The translations under genes and the position numbers were made by a program. 64,000 nucleotides of DNA, taken from assembly GCF_023161965.1 (NCBI RefSeq), contig NZ_JALNTY010000001.1, positions 664,501 through 728,500 of the forward strand, given 5' to 3'. The first letter of the stretch is position 1. Every line of letters begins with the position of its first letter. This document shows, in pieces, positions 30,998 through 38,417 of this stretch. The notes under the pieces were generated by a model, which worked only from the letters and a program-made list of their open reading frames with translations, had not been told where the DNA came from and did not search any database. This DNA comes from Anaerosoma tenue. Its GTDB lineage: Bacteria; Actinomycetota; Coriobacteriia; Anaerosomatales; Anaerosomataceae.

Positions 30998-33900
30998 CTA
31001 CTCTCCATCCTCCATCGCGAGGACAGCCTGGAACAACTCGGTCGTTTCCGAGCAAGGGTCTATCCCGAGATCATCCACGAGACGTGTCCTGCACAGGTGA
31101 TACGTTTCGATCGCCCCACTGCGCTGGCCGGCGGTCATCTGGCATCGCATGATCATCTGATAGACGTCCTCGCGCCAGGGATCGGTCGCCGATGCGCGAC
31201 GGAGGAAGCTCAGGGCGGCATCGTAACGACCAGTCTCATACGCCGAGTCGGCCGCCACGAGCATGGCGTCACAGAACTCCCGCTTGAATCTGGCCCTGTC
31301 CTCCTCGAACCACGACTCATACAGATCGGCGGGCAGTAGGTCTCCCCGGTAGACTTCGGCGAGTAACTCGCCAGCCTCGACTACGTCAGCGTGCCTGCCG
31401 GATGAGTTGGCTTCTCGAATCGTACGTGAACATCGCCCGAAATCTGCGATATCCGAATGGACGGCCTCGGTGACCCGACACACCCCGCCCGTGCAGACGA
31501 GGAACCGGCGCCAGGCGTTTCCCCGCTCACCAGAGAGGATTGCGGTCTTGAGCGCACTCCAGGTCACGTAGAAGTTCCGTAACGCGCGCTCGCGATCCAT
31601 ATCCGGCCAGAGGTACTCGAGTATCACGTCTCTCGAGAGGTCACATCCTTGTCTGCACACGAGCATCAAGAACAGCCGCCGGGACTTCCTCTTGCACCAG
31701 TGTTCCTCTTCCACCCTTCCGCCGGGGCCCGTCACCTCAAGGCGCCCGAAGAGCTTGACGTGAAGATCGCTTGCGGCGGCGACCGGAACATTGGTGTCTG
31801 GCGGGGCGCTCATCGACCGCCCCATCAGCGTCCGCTCGGGTGACTCCTCGGGCCGACATCGTGACGCGATGTAGGTCCACTCGTCTGCAGTCAGCAGTCC
31901 CATCTCCGATGTCCTGGCAGCCTCTGCGACCCTCACGGGCACCAGCCACAGGAGTTTCGCAGACATCAGCAGCGGGCCGACGGCACGCGCCGCGAGCCCC
32001 AGGAGGCCCGGAAACGCGCGGACGTAGAATGCGAGGGTCATGTTCGGAGAGCCGCTCCTGATGTACTCCGTGTATGGCGTGAGAATCTGGACCGCGTCCG
32101 CAACCCGCCCCTCTCGACGCTCCACTTCGGCCATGACCAGATCGCTCCTGAACAAGTGGCCGGATGCAGCGGTGCCCCGAATCTCCGGCTCGACCTGATG
32201 GATGAGCTCCACTGCGATCGCCGGCTCATCCAGCGCGAGGTGCGTGGCGGCCGCCTCGATCATAGCCGCCAAGTACGTCATGCGGGCGCCCTCGCCAAGC
32301 GACTCAAGGAGTATCAGGCTTCTCTCGATAGTACTGAGCGCCCGATGGTTCTCCGTCATTGCGCGCAAAGAGCGCGCCGCATCGATGCCGTATGTTGCGA
32401 CACCGAAGTCGTCCGACTGCTGTTCGAGGATCGCCATGGAATTGGAGTGGGCCTCATCGGCATCTTCCGTACGATCAGTGACGAACATGATGTTGGCGAG
32501 CGTACCGAGCGCATAGGCATGGAGAGCCTCAAGGCCTTTGAGGTTCGCGACCTCGCTGATGACCGACCCGAGGATCTCCTCTGCCGTATCCACTTCCCCG
32601 AGTTCCGCCAGGGCCGTCGCATAGTTCGTCCTGAGATGCAGTCGCTGTACGACGGAGATGTCGCTCCTGCAGGCGATGGGCGCGAAGAACTCTACCGCCG
32701 AAGTCCAACTCCCAAGACACTGACAGGCGACGGCAGCCGCACAGTTCGCCGCGAGCACGGCCTCATCGGAGCCAAGGTCGAGGCTGGGAAGCATGTGTCG
32801 CACTGCGTCTGTACGCGCGAGGGCCTCCTCAAGCAGTCCGGACTGTGCCTCTGCCACAGCCAGGTAGGCCTCACACAGACATCGGGCAGCAACATTGGCC
32901 CCCAGCGCCGGGTGATCGCGCAGTCGTTCGAGATCGCCTCTGGCATCGCCCATGCGTCCTCGGTCCAGATGGAGTCGTGAGGTCAGCAGAACCGCGGCAA
33001 CGAGGCTCTCCTCGTCTCCGGCGGCTCGGGCCACACACTTGGCAGATGCTCCACAATCCATAGCCTGGTGAGGCATGCCCTGCGCGCGCTTCAGGTGCCC
33101 AAGCAAGACAAGCAAGCGCGCACTCGACGCGATCACACTCATCGGAAGCCGAGACATCAGGCGCGCCGAGACTGCATGCCCAACATGCCGCATCATCGCG
33201 AACCCAGCTTGCTCGCTCCACGCAGCGACCTCGTCAACGCTCCCGTACAGTTCAAGTGCGTGCGCGAGCCCCGCGTAGTCTCTCGTCTGCCACATGCGCT
33301 CGTAGATGATTGATCGAAGGGCGCATAGGTCATCCACGTCTAGGCGGTCCTTGGCCACTCGGTGCGCGACATCCGCGAGCACCGAGTGCGCTCGGAAGCC
33401 AAGCGCCCCCATCGGCATTTCCATGAGACTCAGGAGCGGCATAGCACGGGACAAGCCGCTCCAGTCCACGATGAGATCGCAGGCGACTGCACACTGCTGC
33501 AAGGTGGTGAGGAGGCCCTCCCGCAGCAACGCAGCCACGTACAGTGCAGCCACTTCGTGCTCATCGAAGCGACCGACGATGTGCTCAACCTGCCAGACCA
33601 GATCCCGCGGTCGGAAATCCCCGCATCGGAAATCGTGCCGAAGCATGATATGTGTCATGGCCGGGTGGCCGCCGAACAACGCAAGAAGCGCGTCGACGTC
33701 ATCCTCGTCTCTCGACTCACGTCCGCTGTGCAACAGAAGATGCGCCACCTCGTCCGCCGACAGCCGTAGGTCGTCCTCCTCGATCAGCCAGACGCGACGT
33801 GGGTCCAGGCGAGAATCACGTGGGATTCGGCGGCAGTTCATGATGGTGCGAGCGGATGTGCCCACGTGAGTGCGCAAGTATGATGCAACCTCTACCACCG

Positions 33901-34309
33901 AGTGGATGCTTCGAAGCTCGTTGACCCCATCGATCAGCAAGAGGACACGCTTGCCCGCGAATCGCGTGAGCTTCTCTCGCAGAAGGAGAAGCACGTCCGA
34001 CATCTCGTCGTCTACCGCACACGCAGAGGCGGATATCGGACCAACCTCCGGCGCCGTCCGTACATCGAGAGCATCCCCGATGTACTGGACAACCTCAGTG
34101 GCACTTGCATCGATGTCGGGCAGTTCGACCCATATCACAGCATCGTACGCGCCTGACACGGCCACCTGTGCTGCCAGTACCGACTTGCCGTATCCGGCGG
34201 CGGCGCACACCAGAGTAAGTGGCGGACACTGACTCTCAAGCAGCCTCAGCAGTCGACTACGTACCATCATGGGCTCAGCCTGCAGGACGGCGTGTCCCAG
34301 TATCTCCAT
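30998..34309 (-). CDS. large SARP/BTAD-type transcriptional regulator with STAND ATPase domain
   Basis: A 1103-residue protein starting at ATG 34309 with GGGGAG five bases before. The N-terminal part is a MalT/LuxR-like STAND ATPase (Walker A in CAAAGYGKSVLAAQ, Walker B-like RVLLLIDGVNEL). The middle about 500 residues are helical, TPR-like. The C-terminus has a winged-helix domain (about 845-935, starting LHVKLFGRLEV) followed by a bacterial transcriptional activation (BTAD) domain ending DDLGIDPCSETTELF. In MalT-like proteins the STAND module integrates a ligand signal and drives oligomerisation. Composition is lower in GC than in the housekeeping neighbours. Its likely targets are itself or the HD-domain operon just upstream. 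Confidence 0.85.
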   Translation of the reverse strand: MEILGHAVLQAEPMMVRSRLLRLLESQCPPLTLVCAAAGYGKSVLAAQVAVSGAYDAVIWVELPDIDASATEVVQYIGDALDVRTAPEVGPISASACAVDDEMSDVLLLLREKLTRFAGKRVLLLIDGVNELRSIHSVVEVASYLRTHVGTSARTIMNCRRIPRDSRLDPRRVWLIEEDDLRLSADEVAHLLLHSGRESRDEDDVDALLALFGGHPAMTHIMLRHDFRCGDFRPRDLVWQVEHIVGRFDEHEVAALYVAALLREGLLTTLQQCAVACDLIVDWSGLSRAMPLLSLMEMPMGALGFRAHSVLADVAHRVAKDRLDVDDLCALRSIIYERMWQTRDYAGLAHALELYGSVDEVAAWSEQAGFAMMRHVGHAVSARLMSRLPMSVIASSARLLVLLGHLKRAQGMPHQAMDCGASAKCVARAAGDEESLVAAVLLTSRLHLDRGRMGDARGDLERLRDHPALGANVAARCLCEAYLAVAEAQSGLLEEALARTDAVRHMLPSLDLGSDEAVLAANCAAAVACQCLGSWTSAVEFFAPIACRSDISVVQRLHLRTNYATALAELGEVDTAEEILGSVISEVANLKGLEALHAYALGTLANIMFVTDRTEDADEAHSNSMAILEQQSDDFGVATYGIDAARSLRAMTENHRALSTIERSLILLESLGEGARMTYLAAMIEAAATHLALDEPAIAVELIHQVEPEIRGTAASGHLFRSDLVMAEVERREGRVADAVQILTPYTEYIRSGSPNMTLAFYVRAFPGLLGLAARAVGPLLMSAKLLWLVPVRVAEAARTSEMGLLTADEWTYIASRCRPEESPERTLMGRSMSAPPDTNVPVAAASDLHVKLFGRLEVTGPGGRVEEEHWCKRKSRRLFLMLVCRQGCDLSRDVILEYLWPDMDRERALRNFYVTWSALKTAILSGERGNAWRRFLVCTGGVCRVTEAVHSDIADFGRCSRTIREANSSGRHADVVEAGELLAEVYRGDLLPADLYESWFEEDRARFKREFCDAMLVAADSAYETGRYDAALSFLRRASATDPWREDVYQMIMRCQMTAGQRSGAIETYHLCRTRLVDDLGIDPCSETTELFQAVLAMEDGE

Positions 34310-34469: not shown

Positions 34470-35030
34470 CTAGCCGGGCAGACCCGATGGCCTGCGGCTC
34501 GCCGCGAACACCCACCCCGCCAGACCAAGCGAGAGCAGGATGTCACCCACACTCACGACACCTCTCTGCCACTCGGGACCCGGAACGGCGATCACGTCCG
34601 CGAGCTGCGGTAGGAGCGTCTCCCCGTGCAGCGCCTCATGCAACTGGTCGGCATCGAGGCTTGCAGTCGCCTCATCGCGCGGCGCACCCAACTCTGAAGT
34701 CGAGCGCAAGCTCACCGGCATGGCGCCATTGAGCCCAATCACCAGTACGTTCATCGCAATCCCGAGAGCCGCGAAGCCGAGAATCCAGCGTCGCCAAACG
34801 TTGGCGAGCATCACGCCCACCAGGGCGACCATCATCACGAGCCAGACCATCAGACTCAGGTCATGCCCAACGCCGATGAGTGAAGCCACGCGTGGCCACA
34901 CAAGCTGAACGGGCAGCAGTACCAGCAGCACCCACTCGCCTCGAAGTCTTTCGTGCTCCAGATTACGCAGAGAACCCCCCGTTGCCAGGGAGAGGAGCAG
35001 CGCGAGAACGACTGCTTCCAAGAGGATCAC
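34470..35030 (-). CDS. DUF5317 membrane protein
   Basis: A 186-residue protein with four to five helices, beginning VVLALLLSLATGGSLRNLEHERLRG, the GGxxxNL..LRG pattern of DUF5317, and ending with a helix before ASRRPSGLPG. The function of the family is not known. It is the last gene of a minus-strand operon, with a four-base overlap (ATGA) with the HD-domain gene before it. Such overlaps imply coupled translation with the HD-domain proteins. The 160 bases between this gene and the regulator gene at 34309 hold no ORF of note. Confidence 0.75.
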   Translation of the reverse strand: MILLEAVVLALLLSLATGGSLRNLEHERLRGEWVLLVLLPVQLVWPRVASLIGVGHDLSLMVWLVMMVALVGVMLANVWRRWILGFAALGIAMNVLVIGLNGAMPVSLRSTSELGAPRDEATASLDADQLHEALHGETLLPQLADVIAVPGPEWQRGVVSVGDILLSLGLAGWVFAASRRPSGLPG

Positions 35031-36247
35031 GACGGATCCTCCGACAATCCGAGCGAACCGGAGCGCCGGCTGACGACCGATGCCAGGGTCTTGGCAGCCC
35101 GCAGACGGCGCCCCTCCTCTTCGGCCTCCAACCTCTCAAGCGCAGCCCTAGCCCCGATGTGTGAGCGCAAGCGATCGTAACGACAACACACGCCGACGAT
35201 CACGGCACCTTCGGGCACGACGTCATCATCGGTATCCCGATGATGTCTGATCAACGGCGCAACGCCCTCCAGGAACGGGACCGCCTCGACAATCTCCGCC
35301 CCACGCACTGGGTGTGTGGTGTCAGCATCCTCACCGTCGTAGCCGATGCGGCCTACATCGTGAAGAAGTGCACCATACCCAACATGCTCAAGTTCCGTGC
35401 TGGACAACCCACTCTCGCGGCCAACGGCTATCGCCAGTTCGGCGACCCGCTCGGCGTGTCCCACATCTTGCGGCCTATCCATCTCAGCTGCGTGTGCGAG
35501 CGCCTTGATGGTCTGGGCATACGCACGCCTTATGCGCAGGTAGAGGTTGAAGCTGTTCTGAAGGATCAGCGTCAGCAGTAGCGCGATCGCTAAGCCCCAC
35601 GCGCCGAGCGACGGGTAGACGCGCAGCACCACTGCGGCCATGGCGATGTGGACCATGTAGACAGATCCAAGGGGGCGAACGAGGGAGATGAACCCCTCCA
35701 GAACGCCAGGCCCCCCAGCGGCCCACTGTTGAGCGGCAATCGTCATCACGTCCAGGATGGCGTAGGACGCGCCCATGACGATCCCGAGGACAAGAATGGC
35801 ATCACTAACGGTGTCCGCCGTCGCAAGCGGACGTACGAGCACTTGCCACGGCGACAACAGTGCGAGCACTGAAACGCTTCGCGCAAGGTCAGCGAGACGA
35901 CCGGCGACCACAGACACGTCCTCTTGCGAAGCCCTCACCATTACGTCGAGCGCACCGGCGACAGACGCGGCGGTCAGTATCTCACCGGTGCTTCGCAGGG
36001 ACAGCGCAGCCAGCCCGACGACCAGCGTGATTCGTATCCGATCCCCCTGCGGCAACTGCAGAGTAAGAAGACGGGAAGCGAGAAAGGCAAGGGTGAACCC
36101 TGCGACGGCGGCCACGTTGAACGACGCACCGGACAACCTGCTCGCGGTCCACAATCCTGCTGCCGTTCCGCAGGAAATCAGCATGACCAGGAGTATCGTC
36201 TGCCGCAAGATGGCTGCGCGACTCTTCTGATCAGCAAGGACTTTCAC
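35027..36247 (-). CDS. membrane HD-domain phosphohydrolase, degenerate HD-GYP
   Basis: A 406-residue protein with about six to seven hydrophobic helices in residues 15-235 and an HD domain after about 250. Metal-binding residues are present (HAERVAE, LLHDVGRIG, HPVRGAEI, LIRHHRD), but the following GYP segment is missing: where HD-GYP has HHExxxGxGYP, this protein has HHRDTDDDVVPEG. It is therefore an HD phosphohydrolase of the HD-GYP shape that may not hydrolyse c-di-GMP. It overlaps both neighbours by four bases. Confidence 0.8.
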   Translation of the reverse strand: MKVLADQKSRAAILRQTILLVMLISCGTAAGLWTASRLSGASFNVAAVAGFTLAFLASRLLTLQLPQGDRIRITLVVGLAALSLRSTGEILTAASVAGALDVMVRASQEDVSVVAGRLADLARSVSVLALLSPWQVLVRPLATADTVSDAILVLGIVMGASYAILDVMTIAAQQWAAGGPGVLEGFISLVRPLGSVYMVHIAMAAVVLRVYPSLGAWGLAIALLLTLILQNSFNLYLRIRRAYAQTIKALAHAAEMDRPQDVGHAERVAELAIAVGRESGLSSTELEHVGYGALLHDVGRIGYDGEDADTTHPVRGAEIVEAVPFLEGVAPLIRHHRDTDDDVVPEGAVIVGVCCRYDRLRSHIGARAALERLEAEEEGRRLRAAKTLASVVSRRSGSLGLSEDPS

Positions 36248-37503
36248 GCGGAAGCCCCCCCGGCTCGGGCCTCAGACAGCATGTCGGTGAACTGTCTCAC
36301 AATCTCACCGTCGAGCTGAGAATCCGCGACACGCTGCAACTCCTCACGAGCTTGCTTGTCAGTCATTCGTGGACGATATGCTCGGTCCGATGTCATGGCA
36401 TCGTACGCATCCGCGACAGCAAGGATACGAGCGGGTACCGAGATGCGCTCGCCTACGAGGCCATCGGGGTAGCCTGTGCCATCACACCGCTCGTGGTGAT
36501 GCCTGACGATGTCCACGATGTCGCTGAGGAACTCGACATCACTGACCAGATCACTTCCCAGTGCCGGATGCTGACGGATCGCATTGACCTCGTCTGGCGT
36601 CAACTTCTCAGGAGAAACAAGGGTGTCGAGACTGATGCCGATCTTGCCCACGTCGTGCAGCAGGGCCGCACGCTCGATCAGATCAATCTCAGTCCTGGGC
36701 ATGCCGATACGCTCGGCAAGCATGCGTGCGTACTCGGCGACTCGCTCCGAATGTCCTCTCGTGTATGGGTCCTTCGCCTCGATCGCTGTGACAAGTGAAC
36801 GCACCGTAGACGTGTATGCCTCAGTAAGTTCGACGTACACACGGAAGGTCCGGCGGGCAACCATGAAGGGAAGCACAAGAAGCAACAGACCAAGCCAACT
36901 CTGAACAGCAAGCAGATAGGCGACCAGCAGACCCAGGAGTGCAAGAACCAGCAGACTGCTACCGAACGACAGGAAACCCATACTGCCTACGGTTTCAGTG
37001 AGACGCTTCCGCATCAGCAGACTCGCGCCCATCGAAACAAGGGCGACGTTGCCCACGTAGAACGCCGCTGCAGCAAGCACTGCTGGCACGAGGATGTCTG
37101 CAAGCGCTACTGGCCCGTCGGCGAGCGCCATGCCCCCAAGTCCAATGTAGACGATCGCCGCCAGTCCAACAGAAACCACGAGCTGACCGGCATTGAACAG
37201 GTGAATCGCCAGAGGCTTGCCGGATCGAATCTCAGCTAGGTTCGTCGATGCGGCAATTGCGACCACGATGGCGGCCAACGGACCGGAGTGAAGCAGCGCA
37301 GCGTACGCAGCCGCAAACGAAAGAGACACGGAGCCCGTCACCGGAAGATGGAACGCCATGTTCTCGGTCACCAGAACCAAACAGACCAGCAGAACGACGC
37401 CTGACCACTCGGTAATCCTGTACGCGAGGATGAATCGGAGCGTAAGAGCAGCAGCCCCGACACACACCGCCGCGATGAACAGACGCATCCTAGCAGTAAT
37501 CAT
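36244..37503 (-). CDS. membrane HD-GYP c-di-GMP phosphodiesterase
   Basis: A 419-residue protein starting at ATG 37503 (a TTG at 37530 would extend it). About seven hydrophobic helices precede a complete HD-GYP domain: RGHSERVAEYARML, LLHDVGKIGI, HPALGSDLV, HHHERCDGTGYPDGL and the ARILAVADAYDAMTSDR segment. HD-GYP enzymes degrade c-di-GMP to GMP or pGpG. The N-terminal membrane part has no family I can name and may sense a ligand. It follows a 24-residue peptide gene by 42 bases and overlaps the degenerate HD gene by four bases. Confidence 0.88.
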   Translation of the reverse strand: MITARMRLFIAAVCVGAAALTLRFILAYRITEWSGVVLLVCLVLVTENMAFHLPVTGSVSLSFAAAYAALLHSGPLAAIVVAIAASTNLAEIRSGKPLAIHLFNAGQLVVSVGLAAIVYIGLGGMALADGPVALADILVPAVLAAAAFYVGNVALVSMGASLLMRKRLTETVGSMGFLSFGSSLLVLALLGLLVAYLLAVQSWLGLLLLVLPFMVARRTFRVYVELTEAYTSTVRSLVTAIEAKDPYTRGHSERVAEYARMLAERIGMPRTEIDLIERAALLHDVGKIGISLDTLVSPEKLTPDEVNAIRQHPALGSDLVSDVEFLSDIVDIVRHHHERCDGTGYPDGLVGERISVPARILAVADAYDAMTSDRAYRPRMTDKQAREELQRVADSQLDGEIVRQFTDMLSEARAGGASA

Positions 37504-37545
37504 TGCAGCCCCCAGGCGAAGCTGGGCCAACGCCGTTCCTGCAAA

Positions 37546-37620
37546 CTAGAGGCGGAACCATGCGCCGCCGCCGATAACGAGCGCGGCGATGGAGGCGAGG
37601 AACAAAGCAATACGCTTCAT
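37546..37620 (-). CDS. 24-residue hydrophobic peptide
   Basis: A tiny ORF on the minus strand encodes an N-terminal MKR, a hydrophobic stretch IALFLASIAALVIGGG and the end AWFRL, then TAG. A GGGGG-rich site lies before the ATG and the HD-GYP gene starts 42 bases after the stop. It resembles a short membrane peptide or a signal-peptide-like precursor. The hydrophobic pattern, start with MKR and position at the head of a tightly coupled operon argue against chance. The role is unknown: structural peptide, leader peptide or signal are all open. Confidence 0.5.
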   Translation of the reverse strand: MKRIALFLASIAALVIGGGAWFRL

Positions 37621-37751
37621 GTGAGAAGACCCCCTGTCTATGTGGTGTCTTCTCCCACCCCGCTAGTGATGGAAGAACCCTGTCCGCTCCGCTCGGTAGT
37701 TGGCTGACAGTGTTCAAACCGTTCGTTTCCACGGCGTTGGCCCAAACTGGT
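37621..37751 (-). promoter_or_regulatory. structured leader before the peptide/HD-GYP operon
   Basis: On the minus strand, GAGAAGAC (complement of 37647-37654) and GTCTTCTC (complement of 37623-37630) form an eight-bp stem whose loop contains AGGGGG, the probable ribosome-binding site of the 24-residue peptide. The ATG lies two bases beyond the stem. A further stem CTGTC/GACAG can form upstream. It could control translation. I tested it by eye against c-di-GMP riboswitch consensus and did not find a match. Confidence 0.4.
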
Positions 37752-38417
37752 CTATGAGGTTGTCAAGAAGCCGAGCCGCCTGTTGATCGCATCAAGCGTT
37801 GCCCGGACGATGGAGTCTTTGTCGTTCTGGCGCACCAGCGCCGATCCAGCAAAGGCTTGCTCGCCAAGCGAGGTCACCAGCACCACGCATGAGACGGCAA
37901 CGCTCTCCCGCCCCAAGCGGATGATCTCAACGTCTTCAAGCGCGAAGGTGAACGCGCCCTGAAGGTACTGCGCGATGGCGTCGAGCGTGGCCTCGGCCAC
38001 CAGACGCTCCCGTCCGGTGCGGCTGGCCGGCCCCGTGGCCTTGCCCACGAAGAGCTCGCCCTCGAGCTCGAGGGACACGGCGATGTTCACGTACACGCCC
38101 GCCACCTCGGCATTGATGCTCTTGATCTGCGCGCGTGCGTGCGGTTTGCCCGGGGCCTCGCTCGGGGGCGCCGCCTCCTGGCCCAGCTGCGCGATGGAGA
38201 TCTTCTTGTGGTCCACCGCGATGCCAAAGGCGGCCATCAGCGTGGATTCGATGTCGCGCACCAATTGCTTGGGCGACTTCGAGGGGAGAGCGAGCACGTG
38301 GATCTCATCGATGGTGCCCGCAGGGGATGCCACAACGCGAGCGGCACGAATCTCAGAGACCTGCGACAAGGCCTCCTCGATCTCAGTGATGAGCGAGGGA
38401 GATACCACGGGTTCCAT
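37752..38417 (-). CDS. hypothetical protein, 221 residues
   Basis: A soluble protein with two similar alpha/beta halves separated by a short Pro/Ala/Glu linker (EAAPPSEAPGKPHA). The first half has EEALSQVSEIRAARVVASPAGTIDEIHVL, the second SLELEGELFVGKATGPASRTGRERLVAEATLDAIAQYL. Later motifs include AFAGSALVRQNDKDSIVRATLDAINRRL. The repeated 'ATLDAI' helices and charged strands suggest a small binding or assembly protein. No family recognised. Transcribed alone on the minus strand. Confidence 0.6.
   Translation of the reverse strand: MEPVVSPSLITEIEEALSQVSEIRAARVVASPAGTIDEIHVLALPSKSPKQLVRDIESTLMAAFGIAVDHKKISIAQLGQEAAPPSEAPGKPHARAQIKSINAEVAGVYVNIAVSLELEGELFVGKATGPASRTGRERLVAEATLDAIAQYLQGAFTFALEDVEIIRLGRESVAVSCVVLVTSLGEQAFAGSALVRQNDKDSIVRATLDAINRRLGFLTTS

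Follow-up and report, generated by a model that had tools for sequence, protein, structure and literature searches.

A predicted membrane microprotein encoded within a candidate control RNA ahead of an HD-GYP operon in Anaerosoma tenue

A 64,000-nucleotide (nt) stretch of the Anaerosoma tenue genome (assembly GCF_023161965.1, contig NZ_JALNTY010000001.1, positions 664,501 to 728,500; the whole stretch is called the window here) appears, from its sequence, to carry the gene of a 24-residue membrane microprotein inside a structured RNA, directly before the genes of an HD-GYP protein, its degenerate relative HD2 and a DUF5317 protein. With modest confidence, we lean towards the reading that this RNA-controlled microprotein is a small subunit of a sensor complex which tunes a phosphodiesterase of the cyclic diguanylate (c-di-GMP) type. 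An original prediction for this DNA had placed a tiny open reading frame (ORF) at the head of an HD-GYP/HD/DUF5317 operon, and that ORF was confirmed at 37546-37620. The observation itself proves stronger than first stated, and its interpretation finds partial support; the main addition is an RNA element with a long-range closing helix. The features concerned, in window positions, are as follows.

37546-37620, minus strand: ORF of the 24-residue single-pass membrane microprotein, MKRIALFLASIAALVIGGGAWFRL, from conservation and profile searches
37675-37715, minus strand: hairpin P1 (GAAC.CUGUC.GC / GC.GACAG.GUUC), carrying AGCGGAGCGG at 37684-37693
37655-37672, minus strand: hairpin P2, with the loop ACUAGCGG (37660-37667), extendable to 37651-37676 as an alternative to P3
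37623-37654, minus strand: hairpin P3, in which 37647-37654 pairs with 37623-37630
37731-37744, minus strand: 5' arm of P0, the long-range closing helix, perfectly complementary over 14 nt to 37523-37536
37523-37536, minus strand: 3' arm of P0, downstream of the microprotein stop and ahead of the HD-GYP start
36244-37530, minus strand: HD-GYP, predicted membrane phosphodiesterase, from Pfam and invariant active-site residues
35027-36247, minus strand: HD2, degenerate membrane HD protein without GYP, from homology and an AlphaFold model
34470-35030, minus strand: DUF5317 membrane protein (PF17248), Pfam E 3.7e-20
37752-38417, minus strand: UP1, conserved soluble protein adjoining the RNA, from synteny and a structure model
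30998-34309, minus strand: downstream BTAD/STAND-type regulator of 1103 residues, from a BTAD domain and NTPase and TPR matches

The microprotein gene is the best supported part of this arrangement. A search for HD2 in the window's own genome and those of 98 relatives (99 in all) matched 60, and the sample from the order Anaerosomatales (hereafter the order) comprised 51 loci from 49 genomes which, together with the window, gave 52 loci. The original prediction had staked its case on the ORF being present at orthologous loci, and 48 of the 52 keep the 24-codon ORF, including two with the variant start MKMTR (L052 and L058); in the other four (L064, L065, L070 and L079) the contig ends before it. 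The consensus in the order is MKRIxxLLASLAALVLxGGAxxKx, a hydrophobic peptide of about 25 residues that runs from MKR through SLAALVLGGGA to x-aromatic-K/R-x. For codons 2-20 of 46 coding sequences, the mean proportion of nonsynonymous differences (pN) is 0.20 and that of synonymous differences (pS) is 0.61 (pN/pS 0.33), and pN is lower than pS in all 1035 of 1035 pairwise comparisons. With the ORF retained at 48 of 52 loci and pN below pS in every pair, its origin by chance can be regarded as excluded, and on this evidence the gene is close to certain to be real. Genes this short are usually missed in annotation. A Pfam scan of the microprotein returned only weak LPAM_1 matches (best E 0.0021; 13.9 bits in the window against a cut-off of 20), and an NCBIfam scan of three microprotein sequences gave no family match. 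At L036 and similar loci a frame of 13-14 codons, beginning ATG/GTG-GGA-GAA-GAC, ends on the microprotein start codon; it is closed early in the window. This upstream short ORF was dropped as a candidate, its frame being closed by TAG in the window, L038, L040 and L041 when examined by eye.

The leader in front of the ORF is itself strongly conserved, with a mean majority frequency of about 0.89 in P1 and the core, compared with 0.58 at the third codon positions of the ORF and 0.51-0.60 in the spacers. Near-invariant motifs, AGCGGAGCGG and UAGCGG, occupy the P1 and P2 hairpins. RNAalifold resolved 37 leaders into the three hairpins P1-P3, and in this structure 94.3% of cells pair, versus 40-53% when it is slid, with two pairs changed on both sides; the structural alignment (A3) omits L066, L072 and L073 (shifted leaders), L058 (N-filled) and further leaders that were truncated or close duplicates. 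In the order, P3 covers part of the microprotein ribosome-binding site AGGGGG (37630-37635) plus the spacer. P2 can also take an extended form that excludes P3 and the foot of P1, and this alternative is just as well kept (99.2% of its cells).

The clearest covariation within the leader comes from P2. In an alignment of this region from 11 leaders of the order and 11 from outside it (A5; the outside rows are those of 20 loci with a TAGCG loop near an AGCGG block), AGCG is invariant in a 10-nt loop and the 8-base-pair (bp) stem varies freely. Pairing is kept in 87.5% of cells, with four poorly pairing rows (L199, L203, L208 and L209) retained, and both-side changes occur at 8 of 8 pairs, in 27 cells. 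None of 500 shuffles reached the pairing, the cell count or the covariation score, and 3 of 500 reached the number of pairs. The leader shares with translational riboswitches and other cis-acting leaders its conserved unpaired motifs and covarying helices close to a putative expression platform, as well as mutually exclusive helices near the ribosome-binding site, and in structure it looks like a riboswitch. It differs from translational riboswitches in its absence from Rfam, in having the regulated ORF inside its closing helix, and in its restriction to one locus and one context. Rfam searches returned nothing for the leader, whether at a permissive limit of E 5 in the window or at the gathering threshold in seven loci.

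Searches with covariance models place this RNA consistently beside the same genes. A model from the order (R1) finds one copy in the window genome, where a second match (E 5.9) is noise, and matches 54 of the 69 order genomes searched; elsewhere in the class, its yield from 128 genomes is just two weak matches (E 0.0175 and 0.086), and it detects 6 of the 20 outside loci at E < 1e-3. Other genomic contexts, which could have given a clue to a ligand, were not found: the 14 further places in the order are all beside UP1. A broader model (R2), built from 17 sequences and applied to 296 genomes of the phylum, produced 25 matches at E <= 1e-3, the limit for all R2 counts (9 weaker matches, E 0.0185 to 0.093, were left out), and 21 of these lie outside the order. 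All 21 stand directly before HD-GYP, and 15 of them were not used to build R2; a clear peptide follows the RNA in 12 of these 15 and is diverged or doubtful in L230, L231 and L232. Finally, the exact leader core (23 positions, two free) was found in 41 stretches when one genome per species was searched for 84,980 named species. These are labelled Coriobacteriia, Actinobacteria/Actinomycetes/Actinomycetota, Anaerosomatales and Coriobacteriaceae, two being Aeromicrobium sp. and Slackia sp., and in all 41 the leader is followed by an MKR start, with some peptides cut by contig ends. Many metagenome contigs of the order (L118, L119, L121-L123 and L125-L131) break off inside the conserved leader or shortly past it, a sign that its conservation may disrupt assembly there.

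In the window, a perfect 14-nt inverted repeat, P0, flanks both the leader and the ORF. In 38 loci of the order (of 46 leaders, 8 were too short or lacked UP1), cognate P0 duplexes reach -31.4 kcal/mol, compared with -26.4 for non-cognate and -17.8 for shuffled arms; 0 of 2000 permutations were as good, and 31 of the 38 loci beat at least 49 of 50 shuffles. At 16 of the 20 loci outside the order, 5 or fewer of 100 shuffles did as well. In both of these duplex tests the left-arm windows were placed by fixed rules that are suboptimal in some loci. Across 53 loci, under a scoring neutral between G.U and A.C, the P0 pairs comprise 716 Watson-Crick, 50 G.U, 12 A.C and 11 other, counted over loci that are related and so are not independent events. 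The count takes in 15 of the 20 outside loci, leaving out L194, L199, L211 and L241, where P0 is not significant, and the borderline L239 (5 of 100 shuffles). The excess of G.U over A.C favours selection on RNA over a DNA repeat, and both P2 and P0 show compensatory change across families. A mobile element with the P0 arms as terminal repeats was ruled out by the covariation of the arms, the excess of G.U over A.C and the vertical synteny. In L234, L235 and L236, long perfect hairpins follow or overlap the P0 3' arm, as if for termination or RNase III cleavage.

Such a helix could also be a processing stem from which RNase III excises a stable RNA that acts by itself and encodes the peptide. 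The lengths of P0 outside the order (11-28 bp, with an imperfect helix of 53 nt in L229), the near-invariant unpaired motifs and the single copy in the window genome are consistent with a dual-function RNA of this kind. However, wherever the contig includes the downstream gene, that gene is HD-GYP, which favours a role in cis, and in some loci P0 has imperfections or falls short of significance, so that we consider this alternative quite improbable. Still less credible, and indeed highly improbable, is a type I toxin-like module, in which the mRNA of a small hydrophobic toxin is silenced by long-range pairing and masking of its ribosome-binding site. The resemblance is to the AapA family, with its structured mRNAs for small hydrophobic peptides; hairpins that sequester the Shine-Dalgarno sequence are described for Helicobacter pylori AapA3 (PMC6733600). 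In contrast to those toxin mRNAs, the present locus is conserved vertically, as a single copy in one fixed operon position beside HD-GYP across the order and in other families, with no signs of mobility.

Relatives of the microprotein extend well beyond the order. Outside matches reach E values of about 1e-11, and of 20 outside loci fetched with a profile built from sequences of the order alone (A4), 18 lie beside HD-GYP homologues, one (L209) beside UP1 only, at a contig end, and one (L201) beside neither. A second profile (A7) gave 38 outside-order matches at E <= 1e-5 in 29 of the 296 genomes of the phylum, the strongest of which are not independent of the profile as A7 includes rows from outside genomes; DUF5317 is found within 6 kilobases on the same contig for 27 of the 38. 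In six loci (L197, L198, L202, L206, L207 and L210) the microprotein and the neighbouring HD-GYP genes are encoded on opposite strands, and the microprotein therefore cannot be an HD-GYP leader there. At L212:3900-5370, four related micro-ORFs stand in tandem directly before DUF5317; they are of two alternating types, ending in GARWKPN or GAGWKP(Y). In L197, L202, L206 and L207, which lack the AGCGG leader, a block resembling CCCCCGATAGTGGCC lies upstream of the peptide and is possibly a promoter or another control element.

These arrangements bear directly on whether the ORF is a leader peptide or attenuator, an option raised by the original prediction. In that case, only translation of the short ORF would matter, and a ribosome at its stop codon would open P3 and P0, thereby coupling the expression of HD-GYP. 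The layout in the order lends itself to this, as the ORF is inside a structured leader, P3 lies over its ribosome-binding site and, in the window, the P0 3' arm begins about 10 nt past its stop. Yet selection acts at the amino acid level along the hydrophobic stretch and the four C-terminal codons are variable; arrest peptides typically have the reverse pattern of constraint. A pure leader peptide is unlikely because several families have the peptide antiparallel to HD-GYP genes, besides the tandem copies before DUF5317 in L212. What stands of the option is the position of the ORF within a structured leader RNA in the order, and as a whole we rate it as unlikely, if the least so of the rival explanations.

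The genes following the microprotein are coupled, and the four-base overlaps described in the original prediction are present between HD-GYP and HD2 (36244-36247) and between HD2 and DUF5317 (35027-35030). The DUF5317 protein scores 72.9 bits against a profile cut-off of 25; members of this family also occur beyond the phylum, in Thermotoga maritima and Thermus composti. The formal start of the HD-GYP ORF is a TTG at 37530; the ATG at 37503, with GGGGG upstream of it, is likelier. HD-GYP matches Pfam HD_5 at 3.9e-39 with complete metal-ligand and GYP motifs, and its columns invariant in 22 of 22 orthologues include H260, H292, D293, H321, H345, H346, G353, Y354 and D374; to judge by these residues it is catalytically intact. 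Homology to HD-GYP extends along the entire length of HD2 (hhalign probability 100, 376 columns), but HD2 lacks GYP; of 33 sequences, 9 retain all six metal-ligand positions and 6 have lost them all (L067, L075, L079, L081, L082 and L085). This erosion beside the invariant residues of HD-GYP agrees with the earlier suggestion of a receptor that lost its enzyme activity, and by sequence HD2 is a pseudoenzyme lineage.

The AlphaFold model of HD2 (mean predicted local distance difference test score 93.1) has an HD-GYP fold in its C-terminal domain (9rbz, Z 18.0). Its membrane domain matches the S-components of energy-coupling factor (ECF) transporters, with FolT 5d0y at Z 13.0 (root-mean-square deviation 3.0, 153 aligned), at the edge of the range below about 13 where caution applies to helical bundles. 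Further S-component matches (4m5b, Z 12.7; BioY 4dve, Z 12.5; and others) fall at Z 12.5-13 over 153-189 residues, 4m5b being a transition metal transporter, NikM. HD2 is predicted to join an S-component-like membrane domain to an HD-GYP fold, a layout that HD-GYP shares by homology. In the window, HD-GYP scores 18.5 bits for MASE9, below the Pfam threshold of 24.3, and 11 of 22 orthologues match MASE9 at E <= 0.01 (best 8e-07). The N-termini had been called novel-looking; rather than a new fold, they resemble MASE9 (HD-GYP) and ECF S-components (the HD2 model). Compared with MASE9-type HD-GYP phosphodiesterases, the locus has the same intact HD-GYP motif and, in half of the orthologues, the MASE9 match, and differs in its full-length degenerate paralogue, DUF5317 and microprotein. 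Sensory receptors, among them 5TMR histidine kinases and their relatives, are known to use the S-component fold, and passages of PMC11109136 mention GGDEF and EAL outputs. These receptors likewise join an S-component-like membrane domain to a signalling domain, whereas the output here is HD-GYP, which those passages do not mention.

A membrane domain of this kind, together with the tail of the microprotein, could suggest a precursor of a signal: a minimal signal sequence would be cleaved after GGA, leaving the variable last four residues as a species-specific extracellular signal for the S-component-like domains. The microprotein does have a signal-sequence-like layout, and tail codons 21-24 are far less constrained than codons 4-20, with pN/pS of 0.79 and 0.35 among 33 sequences of exactly 24 codons and of 0.94 and 0.14 among 12 sequences of the window's family. 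However, all 33 sequences have K or R at position 23 and most have an aromatic residue at position 22, which fits a membrane-interface anchor; relaxed constraint would explain the tail equally well; and no linked processing or export gene was noticed at the loci. We judge a signal precursor to be very doubtful.

The preferred reading, a small subunit of a sensor complex, would work as follows. That the peptide acts as a protein is supported by the loci with antiparallel or tandem arrangements. The peptide would insert as a single-pass helix with its N-terminus inside and its C-terminus outside, and its S/A/G-rich face may pack against the S-component-like domains of the HD-GYP/HD2 pair, together with DUF5317, so that it could serve as a small regulatory or assembly subunit setting phosphodiesterase activity. 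The leader RNA would be a cis-acting control element in which P3 masks the microprotein ribosome-binding site while P1 is formed, and extension of P2, using the 5' arm of P3 and the 3' foot of P1, would free it. P0 would close the RNA domain and either separate or couple the peptide gene and HD-GYP. A reader of the AGCGG motifs, whether ligand, protein or RNA, would select the state, and the amount of microprotein would thereby be matched to a signal. A bolder version, which we regard as distinctly unlikely, has the structured RNA with its own reader set the dose of the microprotein, and its exposed, species-variable tail serve as a built-in ligand of the S-component-like domains on the phosphodiesterase/pseudo-phosphodiesterase pair, which would amount to a peptide signal, encoded at the locus itself, that feeds into c-di-GMP in Actinomycetota.

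Several observations weigh against the subunit reading. On the RNA side, double changes in P1 and P3 are few because the sequences of the order are nearly invariant, P3 is not evident in L200, L204 and L208, and a single energy-model fold of the window leader is just 1.7 to 2.0 standard deviations better than shuffles. The RNA is missing before the peptide in L197, L198, L202, L206, L207, L210 and L212, and RNA and peptide are therefore separable; conversely, L230, L231 and L232 retain the RNA and HD-GYP, with a peptide that is diverged or doubtful by reading. At L201:4868, a microprotein relative (E 7e-9) has no HD, DUF5317 or UP1 neighbours; Pfam gave only beta-propeller matches for five neighbouring ORFs, and an adjacent ORF has PD40 repeats. 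The S-component match could reflect a common helical arrangement. Finally, the substrate would be c-di-GMP, or another cyclic dinucleotide, on the strength of the intact HD-GYP motif; as the genome encodes 11 GGDEF domains, c-di-GMP is plausible.

Around the operon, transcription on the minus strand runs through UP1, the 24-codon ORF, HD-GYP, HD2, DUF5317 and the BTAD/STAND regulator, with secA beyond. The order keeps the arrangement permease, ABC ATPase, HPF, UP1, leader, HD-GYP, HD2, DUF5317, regulator and secA, except that DUF5317 is placed on the far side of the regulator in several genera. The large STAND-SARP regulator noted downstream in the original prediction is the 1103-residue protein at 30998-34309, and within the order it is a conserved operon neighbour between the operon and secA. 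UP1 is strongly conserved and adjoins the RNA throughout the order and in 14 of the 15 independent R2 loci; on this association it may or may not be part of the system. Its model has a LeuA/citramalate-synthase regulatory-domain fold in the C-terminal half (3f6h, Z 9.7) and a ferredoxin-like N-terminal domain. A double-stranded RNA-binding domain in UP1 was considered and rejected, the weak Foldseek matches being missing from the best 50 rows of a second look, in which the LeuA/citramalate-synthase regulatory domain was the best match over the C-terminal half.

The individual parts of the locus belong to known kinds, namely a small membrane regulator, a cis-acting RNA and an HD-GYP sensor. Small membrane proteins such as KdpF, CydX and MgtS regulate the enzyme or transporter that they partner, and the microprotein resembles them as a short, single-pass hydrophobic protein encoded beside membrane-complex genes. 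It differs from them in having no sequence family match, in its partners, HD-GYP and a pseudo-HD protein, and in a gene that lies within a conserved structured RNA. A literature search, with subscription journals and preprints mostly outside its reach, found no described system combining a microprotein, an RNA and an HD-GYP sensor, and a search on DUF5317 found no papers. In the description of the Anaerosomatales, HD-GYP and c-di-GMP do not occur (PMC9686372).

To summarize, in many uncultured Actinomycetota the microprotein seems to be a small, hitherto overlooked component of a signalling complex. Conserved across many families of the phylum, along with an RNA absent from Rfam, it is indicative of a membrane subunit serving a second-messenger enzyme. 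The functionally uncharacterized DUF5317 family gains clear genomic partners, and the near-invariant AGCGG motifs allow a direct search for the ligand or protein partner of the RNA. If the microprotein controls the HD-GYP/HD2 pair, the locus would illustrate the tuning of c-di-GMP turnover by a microprotein and a pseudoenzyme twin.

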